From Alphaproteobacteria bacterium (GTDB lineage Bacteria; Pseudomonadota; Alphaproteobacteria; Rs-D84): a stretch of 38,683 nt of DNA. Numbering within the stretch: the stretch's first letter is position 1; each line of letters begins with the position of its first letter. Shown piece by piece: positions 21,463-30,624 of this stretch. Below the pieces are notes generated by a model, which was given only the letters and a program-made list of their open reading frames with translations, ran no database searches and was not told where the DNA came from. The DNA lies in contig SUUL01000009.1 in the NCBI GenBank assembly GCA_015062545.1, forward strand, positions 1-38,683, in the 5' to 3' direction. The translations under genes and the position numbers were made by a program.

Positions 21463-21496
21463 GGTGGGTAAGCAAAAATTTTAAGGAGTGAAAATT

Positions 21497-23389
21497 ATGG
21501 CAAAAGTATTGGGTATTGACTTGGGGACAACTAATTCCGCCATGGCATTCATGGACGGCAATGATCCAAAAATTATTGAAAATGCCGAAGGGCAACGTAC
21601 AACACCATCTGTGGTCGCACTGACAAATTCTGGTGAACAGTTGGTTGGTATTACCGCAAAAAATCAGGCTGTGACAAATCCTGAAAATACAATTTATGAA
21701 ATCAAACGTTTGATGGGATTGCGATTTGACAGTCCTGCGGTTAAAGAAATCGCGGCACGTGTACCATATAAAATTGTCGCAGGCGACAATGGGGATGCAT
21801 GGGTGGAAATGGATGGTAAAAAATATGCCCCATCACAGATTTCTGCGATGATTTTGGCAAAATTGAAAAAAGATGCAGAAAGTTATTTGGGTGAAACGGT
21901 AACTGATGCAGTTATTACAGTTCCTGCGTACTTTAATGACTCACAACGTCAGGCAACAAAAGATGCCGGTCGTATTGCGGGCTTGAACGTATTGCGTATT
22001 GTTAATGAACCAACCGCCGCCGCATTGGCGTATGGCCTGGATAAAGGCAAAGATGGCACTATCGCAGTATATGACCTTGGGGGTGGTACGTTTGACGTAT
22101 CCATCTTGGAAATTGTTGATGGTGTGTTTGAGGTAAAATCAACAAATGGCGATACTGCGTTGGGTGGTTCTGACTTTGATGCGCGTGTCTTGGAACATTT
22201 GATTGCAGAATTCAAGGCGCAATCTGGTATTGATTTGTCCGGTGATAAATTGGCGTTGCAACGCTTGAAAGAAGCCGCAGAAAAGGCCAAAATTGAATTG
22301 TCGTCTAAGACATCAACAGACATCAATCTGCCTTATTTGACTGCAGATGCCACAGGTCCAAAGCACTTTAATACAACATTAACACGCGCCAAGTTGGAAT
22401 CTTTGGTTGCGGATTTGATTGAACGCACCATTGAACCTTGCAAAAAAGCATTAAAAGATGCAGGCTTGGAAAAATCACAGATTGACGAAGTTATCTTGGT
22501 CGGTGGTCAGACACGTATGCCAAAGGTTGCGGAAACAGTTAAAGAATTCTTTGGGCGCGAACCACACAAGGGTGTTAACCCAGACGAAGTTGTTGGTATG
22601 GGCGCAGCCATCCAAGGTGGCGTTCTGAAAGGTGATGTAAAAGACGTTCTGTTGTTGGATGTAACACCATTGTCTTTGGGAATTGAAACATTGGGCGGTG
22701 TGTTCACGCGATTGATTGACCGCAATACAACAATCCCAACCAAGAAATCACAAGTGTTCAGCACCGCAGAAGATAATCAATCCGCTGTGACAATTCGTGT
22801 TTTCCAGGGTGAACGCGATATGGCGGCTGATAACAAGTTGTTGGGTCAGTTTAATCTGGAAGGTATTGCACCTGCCCCACGCGGTATGCCACAGATTGAA
22901 GTGTCTTTTGATATTGACGCAAATGGTATCGTTCATGTATCTGCAAAAGATAAAGGTACTGGTAAAGAACAGGCGATTTCAATTAAATCTGATGGTGGGT
23001 TGAGTGAAGATGAAATCAAACGCATGGTTGATGAAGCAGCCGCAAATGCCGAAGCAGATAAGTTGAAACGCGAACTGGCCGAAGCAAAAAATACCGCTGA
23101 AACTGCTATCTTTAGCATTGAAAAATCGCTGAAAGAACACGGTGATAAAATCAGCGAAGATGAAAAGAAAATCATCGAAGATGCCAAAAAAGAATTGGCA
23201 GATGAATTGGCCAAGGCAGATGCCACAGCAGAATCTTTGAAAGCCAAAACAGATGCGTTGTCTGAAAAAGCCATGAAGTTGGGCGAAGCAGTATATAAAG
23301 CTGCACAGGCAGAACAACAGGCATCTGAAAGCGCAGAAAAGAAAAATGAAGATGGCACAGTTGATGCAGACTTTTCTGAAAAGAAATAA
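21497..23389 (+). CDS. dnaK: Chaperone protein DnaK (Hsp70)
   Basis: 630 residues. The ATG at 21497 has the site AAGGAGTG and gives the canonical start [14 protein letters not shown]; the GTG at 21488 lies too close to the site. The ATPase domain shows GIDLGTTNS, the stretch [26 protein letters not shown] and VGGQTRMP. The substrate-binding domain begins after the conserved interdomain linker region ([16 protein letters not shown]), with the helical lid and an acidic, Lys/Glu-rich tail. It folds and protects proteins with DnaJ and GrpE, neither of which is adjacent. It is transcribed alone from a heat-shock-type promoter and closed by a hairpin. Normal length, no missing residue. Confidence 0.98.
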
Positions 23390-23411
23390 TGTGTTGTATC
23401 CCTTCCTTCTG

Positions 23412-23439
23412 AAAAGCCCCGTTGATAGGGGCTTTTTTT
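23412..23439 (+). terminator. Rho-independent terminator of dnaK
   Basis: AAAAGCCCC (23412-23420), a 7-base loop and GGGGCTTTT (23428-23436) with further T. Confidence 0.92.
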
Positions 23440-23449
23440 GTGCGCATCC

Positions 23450-23477
23450 TTGACACTTATGAATTTTGCGCTATATA
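23450..23477 (+). promoter_or_regulatory. Promoter of the ACP-like gene
   Basis: A perfect TTGACA (23450-23455), a 16-base spacer and TATATA (23472-23477), with the start codon about 35 bases downstream. Confidence 0.65.
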
Positions 23478-23512
23478 TGGTGTACGATGTTAAATTAAGG
23501 ATATAGAAAAAT

Positions 23513-23962
23513 ATGATTGCAAAGAAAGTTAAAGAAATTCTGAAAAGCAAATTTGGTCTGACGCGTGTCGAAGATGATATGGTCTTGGATTGGGACTTGG
23601 GCTTGGATGAATTAGATTTTGTGGAACTGGTCATGGCGTTGGAAAAGGAATTTCGTATTCATTTACCGGATGCTTTTGATGCGTGGTTTAAGGTGGAAAT
23701 GAGGGTGTCTGACTTGGTGCGTGTCGTAGAAGAACATCTGCCTGTTCGCGGAATGGAAACTAAGGTACAACAGACGTTAAACCCGATTGCTGGGTTATAT
23801 ACAATGCGTAATGGTGTGCCGATGTGCTGTATTACCGGTGATAAATGCAAGAAATTAACCAAGAACGATGTAAAAAACAATAATGCGCTGCATAATTTAT
23901 GCAGTCGTCATGCGTGTATAATCGAAAGTAATTTTCAACGTTTGGCACAAAAGGTAAAATAA
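23513..23962 (+). CDS. Acyl-carrier-protein-like domain without the phosphopantetheine Ser, plus Cys/His tail
   Basis: 149 residues. Residues 1-78 have the ACP fold pattern: helix I, then DWDLGLDELDFVELVMALE (26-44), the counterpart of the ACP motif D-x-G-x-D-S-L-D-x-V-E-L-V-M-A-L-E, then EFRIHLPD. The Ser that carries 4'-phosphopantetheine is Glu33, so this protein cannot be a normal carrier. Residues 79-149 are not part of ACP and contain Cys105, 106, 112, 130 and 135 with His127 and His133, a likely metal-binding or disulfide cluster. The gene stands alone with its own promoter and terminator. It may be a regulatory or scaffold relative of ACP. No function assigned. Confidence 0.87.
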   Translation: MIAKKVKEILKSKFGLTRVEDDMVLDWDLGLDELDFVELVMALEKEFRIHLPDAFDAWFKVEMRVSDLVRVVEEHLPVRGMETKVQQTLNPIAGLYTMRNGVPMCCITGDKCKKLTKNDVKNNNALHNLCSRHACIIESNFQRLAQKVK

Positions 23963-23990
23963 GAAACGGGCAGATTGCCCGTTTCTTTTT
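23961..23990. terminator. Bidirectional rho-independent terminator between convergent genes
   Basis: A perfect 11-bp stem (23961-23971 with 23977-23987), a 5-base loop, then T on the plus strand. On the minus strand it overlaps the last codon of the phosphofructokinase gene. Confidence 0.85.
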
Positions 23991-25068
23991 ATTTCTGTTC
24001 CCCGATATAGATTCCCATATTGTATGCCACGGCCAGTAATGGGTCTGCGGGCGATACGTATGCGTTTGATGTCATTAAATCTGGAATCTTGGGATCGTGA
24101 ACAACATCACCTGCGGCAACAAAATCAGATAATGGCACAGTATGTACGTTATCACATTCCAATGCGGTCATAACATACGTTTCGCCATTTTCAATCGCGT
24201 TTAATGCGCAATCTGCAAAACGTGTTGCCAGGATTCTGTCGGTGGCGGTTGTGTCCCCTGACCGCTGGGTATGTTCTGGAAATGCCGTACGATTTACGAT
24301 ACCGGCAGCAGTCAATTTGCGTGAAATCATATCTGCAGGACGACCAGAATGACCGCGTAATGATATGCCTTCGGATACAACAATAATGCCGTAATCAGTT
24401 GGAGAATCTTGGATATGCTTTATCAATGCATCAATATCAAATTTTATTTCAGGAATTAAAATTGCGCGCGCGCCAATCGCAACACCAGCATTTAATGCCA
24501 GGTTACCACAGTCGCGACCCATTGCCTGCACTACAAACCAACGATGATGACTGCGTGCTGTTAACATTAATTGGTCACAATACGATGTTAACTGTTGAAC
24601 CGCGGTATCAAAGCCGATTGTGCGTTCTGTTAATGGCATGTCCATATCAATCGTTTTTGGAATACATATCAGCTGTAAATCACGATAGATGTCACGATGC
24701 GCCCATGCCAAAGAAAGACTGCCGTTGCCACCAATTAAAATCAATGCGTCCAATTTTAGTGCTTGTAACGATTTGCGTAACTGTTTGTTGAATTTATCTA
24801 CCTGTCCGCGCTCGATAGCGGTTTCAAAATTTAACGCAGTGGCGCGTCCATTGTGAAGAAAACTGCCCGCAAGGCGAGCGTTTTCAATAGGTAACATCAT
24901 GTCTGTTAATTTTATCACTGCGGGTGGTGTCACGCACAGACCGTCTGTGCCATCCAATATCCCAAAAACCTGCCAGCCACGCAACGTTGCACCGTGCATA
25001 ATACGTTGAATTGCGGTGTTCAAGCCACTGCAATCGCCGCCAGTGGTCATAATTCCTATTTTCTTCAT
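23989..25068 (-). CDS. 6-phosphofructokinase family protein with atypical active-site motif
   Basis: 359 residues of the PfkA family, which phosphorylates fructose 6-phosphate to the 1,6-bisphosphate. The N-terminal phosphate loop TTGGDCSGLN is at 8-17. The nucleotide-site motif is GGNGS (113-117), where ATP enzymes have GGDGS and pyrophosphate enzymes GGDD. The catalytic motif is PKTIDMD (137-143) with both Asp retained (141, 143); the Lys in P-K-T is typical of the pyrophosphate lineage and of its ATP-using relatives. The MGRDCG segment near 188-193 matches the sugar-phosphate site. Gly after Asn suggests ATP use, but the Asp-to-Asn change at residue 115 is unusual. Single gene behind its own promoter, divergent from the LysM gene. 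Confidence 0.9.
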   Translation of the reverse strand: MKKIGIMTTGGDCSGLNTAIQRIMHGATLRGWQVFGILDGTDGLCVTPPAVIKLTDMMLPIENARLAGSFLHNGRATALNFETAIERGQVDKFNKQLRKSLQALKLDALILIGGNGSLSLAWAHRDIYRDLQLICIPKTIDMDMPLTERTIGFDTAVQQLTSYCDQLMLTARSHHRWFVVQAMGRDCGNLALNAGVAIGARAILIPEIKFDIDALIKHIQDSPTDYGIIVVSEGISLRGHSGRPADMISRKLTAAGIVNRTAFPEHTQRSGDTTATDRILATRFADCALNAIENGETYVMTALECDNVHTVPLSDFVAAGDVVHDPKIPDLMTSNAYVSPADPLLAVAYNMGIYIGEQK

Positions 25069-30372: not shown

Positions 30373-30624
30373 ATGAAATATTGCAATGGTTGCAGTGAAC
30401 GTTGTAAATTGGGTTATACAATAACAGATGGGGCGCGTCATATTGCGCCATGTGTTGGTGGGGTTACATATTGGGTTTATGACATTTATTCATCGGGAAT
30501 ACAACGGGTCTTGTTTGAACGTGTTGCAGATACCGCCACAGCAAGGGCGCATCAGGTGACTTTGGCCGTCAAACGTGCCAAGGATATTGCCAGATATTGC
30601 ACAGAACAAAAATGTCAAAGATAA
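30373..30624 (+). CDS. Small Cys-rich protein with CxxCxxxC
   Basis: 83 residues, not recognised. The start has AAAGGTG seven bases upstream and follows xseA by nine bases. It has Cys4, 7, 11, 27, 76 and 81. The early C-x2-C-x3-C looks like a metal or iron-sulfur ligand set. The middle is aromatic and Gly-rich, the last 30 residues are basic and helical. No signal peptide. It is not XseB: it lacks the acidic helical hairpin of that family. Last gene of the operon, closed by a hairpin. Confidence 0.75.
   Translation: MKYCNGCSERCKLGYTITDGARHIAPCVGGVTYWVYDIYSSGIQRVLFERVADTATARAHQVTLAVKRAKDIARYCTEQKCQR

Follow-up and report, generated by a model that had tools for sequence, protein, structure and literature searches.

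The locus between dnaK and the phosphofructokinase gene

The window, i.e., the whole 38,683-nucleotide stretch of DNA that was analysed, belongs to a 0.94-Mb host genome (97% complete) of a reduced-genome alphaproteobacterial genus, probably Candidatus Enterousia, with which its size, its class and its gut relatives agree; the genomes of Candidatus Enterousia (order Rs-D84) are described as reduced and symbiont-like (PMC12306168). At 23513-23962, on the + strand, an ORF with an ATG start encodes a 149-amino acid protein, in which an acyl carrier protein (ACP)-like domain devoid of the phosphopantetheine (PPant) Ser is followed by a Cys tail, and whose orthologs are found at the same place in other members of the genus. 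The gene is framed by two syntenic neighbours, dnaK on the left (21488-23389, +; Pfam HSP70) and a convergent gene of the 6-phosphofructokinase family on the right (PFK; 23989-25068, -; Pfam PFK). The ACP-like domain spans residues 1-75 (23513-23737, +), with a four-helix fold recognised by Pfam PP-binding, the AlphaFold (AF2) model and Foldseek, and the C-terminal Cys4 module, delineated by alignments, profile search and model, spans the 55 residues 95-149 (23795-23959, +).

A first-pass annotation had credited the gene with its own promoter and terminator, and the latter is borne out. A bidirectional intrinsic terminator, located by the scan at 23961-23987 and common to the ACP-Cys4 gene and the convergent PFK gene, has a 12-bp stem and a T run on both strands. 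The promoter is only plausible: downstream of a terminator-like hairpin 3' of dnaK (AAAAGCCCC GTTGATA GGGGCTTTT; 23412-23436, +), a perfect TTGACA at 23450 is followed, 16 nt on, by TATATA (23450-23477, +), both elements being read by eye and absent from the scan list, and the promoter-like one being weak. None of the promoters listed by the consensus scan falls in the gap between dnaK and the ACP-Cys4 gene, and its regional count (3 vs 2.0 in shuffles) is not higher. A Shine-Dalgarno-like AAGGA was also read by eye at 23497-23501 (+).

The content of the dnaK-PFK junction (window 23390-23988; L065-L124) varies across the genus: depending on the genome, it is empty or occupied by ACP-Cys4 genes, by a 421-aa protein or by unrelated proteins of 126-207 aa, and three consecutive ACP-like ORFs are found at the junction of genome G060 (L071 830-2470). 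Elsewhere in the window are an RNase P RNA (RF00010; 9419-9749, -; 170 bits) and an 83-aa Cys-rich ORF (30373-30624, +; CNGCSERC ... YCTEQKCQR), directly 3' of xseA, where xseB might be expected. The latter belongs to no Pfam family, and small Cys-rich ORFs resembling it lie near fabF in G060 (L163).

The ACP head and its recognition face

The head of the window protein is of ACP-family ancestry. Pfam PF00550 (PP-binding) matches residues 5-54 (E 7e-6, 26.6 bits vs a cut-off of 20.8), which places it in the ACP fold family, and the AF2 model gives ACP helices with a pLDDT mostly of 70-95 over residues 1-78. Foldseek matches many ACP structures (TMt about 0.8), and the best structural relatives in the PDB, by sequence and by fold, are solved ACPs. 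The protein is not, however, an AcpP-type equivalog: its TIGR00517 score is 39.9 bits vs a cut-off of 70.45, the matches to the NCBIfam ACP models stay below their cut-offs, and the Ser of the DSL motif is replaced. As the first-pass annotation had pointed out, the prosthetic-group Ser is Glu in the motif DLGLD-E33-LDFVELVMALE, codon 33 being GAA (23609-23611, +) and falling at the PPant-Ser position in the alignment. The description of a carrier unable to carry thus fits an ACP-fold protein that would escape phosphopantetheinylation at the usual site.

The resemblance to AcpP is concentrated in helix II, the partner-recognition helix of AcpP, which corresponds to residues 33-47 (23609-23653, +) as positioned by the AF2 model and by comparison with AcpP. 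Over residues 4-76, the head is 47% identical to the AcpP of its own genome, and the eight acidic-face recognition positions that were compared read DDEEKEDA in both proteins, the window copy being the sole family member to match the AcpP of its own genome at all eight. Identity is higher in helix II (11/15) than elsewhere (18/55), with a Fisher p of 0.006 that is uncorrected and comes from one of 17 comparisons. With this AcpP recognition helix preserved, the window protein could credibly bind fatty-acid enzymes; the likeness of helix II is nevertheless weakened as evidence for docking, since its residues are also structural in ACPs.

Only two PP-binding matches were found in the host genome, namely a normal AcpP (DLGADSLD) beside FabF and the window gene, and this genome also encodes AcpS and a FabD-type transacylase. 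With a normal AcpP and its partner enzymes in the genome, the window gene is an extra ACP gene and not the housekeeping one. In the genus-wide PF00550 census, the reduced genomes of some species had as many as six PP-binding domains, among them ACP domains within ORFs of ~220-320 aa. At another locus (L162; G002:C4:100000-105000), a pair of small DSID-bearing ACPs lies beside acyltransferase-like and AMP-ligase-like genes, in an arrangement that resembles an aryl-polyene type cluster.

The ACP-Cys4 family and its tail

The first search retrieved diverged tailed relatives within the genus, several of them at the dnaK-PFK junction; further members came to light in 60 PFK-side intervals, and a tail profile was finally used. 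The profile has 16 matches in 11 of the 156 genus genomes (E < 1e-11), every one ACP-linked, and with the copy of G096, added by synteny, the family has 17 members in 12 of these 156 genomes. The window gene itself matches the profile with an E of 1.6e-22 and combines the ACP domain with the C-x6-C...C-x4-C pattern of the family. No tail devoid of an ACP head was found among the profile matches in the 156 genus genomes, so that head and tail occur together in every member, and no match was found in the other genera of the order. All 12 family-bearing genomes are among the 19 whose PFK is most identical to that of the window (79-86%). The closest orthologs, those of G060 and G088, are 40-43% identical to the window protein, none being nearer than about 43%.

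Ten members lie in the dnaK-PFK interval (window, G060, G088, G010, G015a, G048, G096, G013a, G134a and G116a) and that of G164 adjoins dnaK. Synteny holds on both sides, as dnaK - X - PFK, in the window, G010, G015, G013, G060, G134 and G116, and on one side in G048, G088 and G096 (PFK side) and in G164 (dnaK side). Other copies, i.e., G015b (by mreB/nth), G013b, G116b, G116c, G134b and that of G082, are located elsewhere. The family is best explained as a young, clade-restricted one, in which stand-alone paralogs of ACP carry a four-Cys module at their C-terminus. It is named neither in Pfam or NCBIfam nor in the paper on reduced-genome gut bacteria (PMC12306168). A phage or viral origin was also considered and rejected, no match being found.

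A second class of fusions (L156-L159) joins an ACP, with DSLD intact, to a larger Cys-rich domain, most of these tails ending in ...KYGKQR or KYEKQR; G115, G077, G107 and G144 have one or two copies, with ftsH-like and metallo-hydrolase-like genes as neighbours.

The five Cys (105, 106, 112, 130 and 135) and two His (127 and 133) noted earlier in the window tail are all present, and only a part of them is conserved. C105 (23825-23827, +), C112 (23846-23848, +), C130 (23900-23902, +) and C135 (23915-23917, +), which form the pattern C-x6-C...C-x4-C, are found in every one of the 14 rows of the tail alignment, and a single family member, G096, lacks the second one. C106, H127 and H133 vary in the tail alignments, and a metal set made of all seven residues is therefore ruled out. 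Loss of the Cys set in relatives, an outcome put forward in the first-pass annotation as a refutation, is not what we observed, the four Cys being retained. As the association of an ACP domain with a Cys tail is common to 17 members, it exceeds chance, and the four-Cys tail is a true family feature; the gene is hence, in agreement with the first-pass annotation, not random debris.

In the AlphaFold model, the tail has three helices in addition to a single beta hairpin, a fold for which no match was found by PDB sequence, Pfam or Foldseek, and the C-x6-C / C-x4-C spacing differs from that of a standard zinc ribbon. In profile comparisons, neither small Cys proteins nor the second ACP-Cys class of the genus were supported as homologs of the tail. 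The Cys4 tail is a putative metal-binding module.

Loss of the Ser and possible role

Glu33 had been proposed for a conservation check, in which it did not hold up: 12 of the 17 members keep Ser, and so do the nearest orthologs among them (G060 and G088). Homologs with Ser had been named in the first-pass annotation as a refutation, and their existence rules out Glu33 as a conserved trait of the family. The other members carry Glu (window and G013a), Asp (G134a and G116a) or Val (G116c). In a family tree built without the Ser column, in which most inner branches are weakly supported, three changes explain this pattern; the Ser would therefore have been lost about three times, twice to Glu/Asp and once to Val, the tail being retained. 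A recent single mutation, envisaged at the outset, is unlikely, as at least two base changes are needed to convert the Ser codons of the homologs (AGC or TCN) into GAA. Together with the presence of Glu/Asp in a second lineage, this led us to reject a single recent mutation or a sequencing error at Glu33.

The window protein probably has a docking or regulatory role rather than a carrier one. Our preferred reading, tentative and with a probability of about 0.4, is that it could be a PPant-free ACP mimic docking on a partner of AcpP and endowed with a metal-binding tail. The ACP ancestry, the missing Ser, the retained recognition face and the conserved Cys4 are observed; partner binding, a metal and a regulatory effect are what we infer. 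AcpS would be unable to load the protein, Glu33 being at the Ser position, and helix II would dock on at least one AcpP partner in the cell, e.g., FabD, FabF or AcpS. Glu33 would stand in for the negative charge of the phosphate, without the acyl chain, and the Cys4 tail would wrap around a metal, zinc being the most likely one, and serve as a tether or as a metal- or redox-responsive part.

The main rival to this reading is a decaying or diversifying paralog. As a decaying accessory paralog, the gene would have lost its carrier role, its head would be drifting and its intact ORF would be transient in the dnaK-PFK insertion hot spot, which we consider somewhat unlikely. The family is indeed patchy (12/156 genus genomes), its interval is highly variable, being empty or filled by unrelated genes in many relatives, and the repeated loss of the Ser points in the same direction, as does a pN/pS of the ACP domain of ~1.0 in G060/G088 and ~3.2 in G013b/G134b. 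The constraint on the head appears from these comparisons to vary among sub-groups, two Ser-bearing ones evolving in a near-neutral or faster way with conserved tails, which makes it less likely that partners generally constrain the heads strongly. Decay is nevertheless difficult to reconcile with an intact ORF that is preceded by a plausible Shine-Dalgarno site and followed by a terminator, with the Cys tail retained in every Ser-less copy, with the preferential preservation of helix II in the window copy and with the two or more base changes that separate Ser from Glu. Furthermore, the head of the Ser-less a-clade is under strong purifying selection, G116a and G134a differing in this domain by 7 synonymous changes and 1 nonsynonymous change. 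Ser-less heads are thus able to stay functional, and the loss of the Ser is not simply decay.

Alternatively, the tail could be the working part, as a module conserved for metal binding or for targeting, and the head a diversifying adaptor, for instance in a conflict with phages or competitors, a proposal that we regard as unlikely. Between G013b and G134b, the heads display ~29 nonsynonymous and 2 synonymous differences and the tails 0 and 5, respectively (Fisher p 6e-5); this is repeated in G060/G088, with ~26 and 6 in the head and ~1 and 4 in the tail (Fisher p 0.014). Multiple copies, scattered loci and the hot spot would also fit such an adaptor. However, the situation is reversed in G116a/G134a, whose heads are better conserved than their tails; in addition, neither a headless tail nor a phage or viral relative was found, and the nonsynonymous excess is by itself weak (p 0.03). 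That the protein would still be a carrier, with an acyl or PPant group on another residue such as one of its five tail Cys, is hardly plausible: Cys residues can be acylated, but AcpS acts on the Ser of the DSL motif, absent here, and the Ser-keeping copies conserve the tail Cys just as well, so that these are no replacement for the Ser.

A more elaborate form of the docking mimic that we favour would be a charge-mimicking, permanently apo ACP, competing with AcpP or regulating it at fatty-acid or lipid A enzymes of a gut bacterium with a reduced genome, with a four-Cys metal or redox gate, diversifying heads and a fixed tail; so complete a scheme seems improbable. At three other places (L040 5020-5826, L131 859-1647 and L132 664-1647), ACP heads show near-zero synonymous and many nonsynonymous differences, and the Cys4 tail, to which they are linked by tandem repeats of variable length (KEQTQESPEPVAD-type), is identical. 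Positive selection on the ACP is possible in these heads.

Comparison with known systems shows what is shared and what is not. Like AcpP (TIGR00517 / PF00550), the window protein has the four-helix fold and a helix II face identical at eight positions, but it lacks the PPant Ser, bears an added Cys4 tail and coexists with a separate, normal AcpP. Mitochondrial ACP, whose structures are among the matches, similarly has the ACP fold, which serves there as a structural subunit of complex I and of the NFS1-ISD11 complex; it has no Cys tail. In both complexes, mitochondrial ACPs keep the PPant and its acyl chain. The L156-L159 fusions also combine an ACP head and a Cys-rich tail in a lineage-specific manner, but with DSLD intact, at another locus and with a tail that is not detectably homologous by profile comparison. 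IacP of Salmonella, described as 4'-PP-modified on Ser38 (PMC5279801), and the sphingolipid ACP (PMC9386255) are extra ACPs that exist beside AcpP for a lineage-specific partner; unlike them, the window protein has no Ser and no adjoining known partner gene, and it has a Cys tail.

Both the ACP fold and extra ACPs with a dedicated role are well known. No precedent for Ser-less or zinc-tailed ACPs was found in the open literature, and searches of Pfam, NCBIfam, the PDB (with the tail sequence and fold) and the open literature yielded no clade-specific ACP-Cys4 fusion family that had repeatedly lost the PPant Ser. Few bacterial proteins are as constrained as ACP, and its Ser is usually deemed its defining feature. 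A natural family in which the fold and a Cys4 tail are kept, and from which the Ser has disappeared about three times, would be evidence that selection can act on the ACP surface for binding only, and would also provide a ready probe for the regulation of fatty-acid synthesis.
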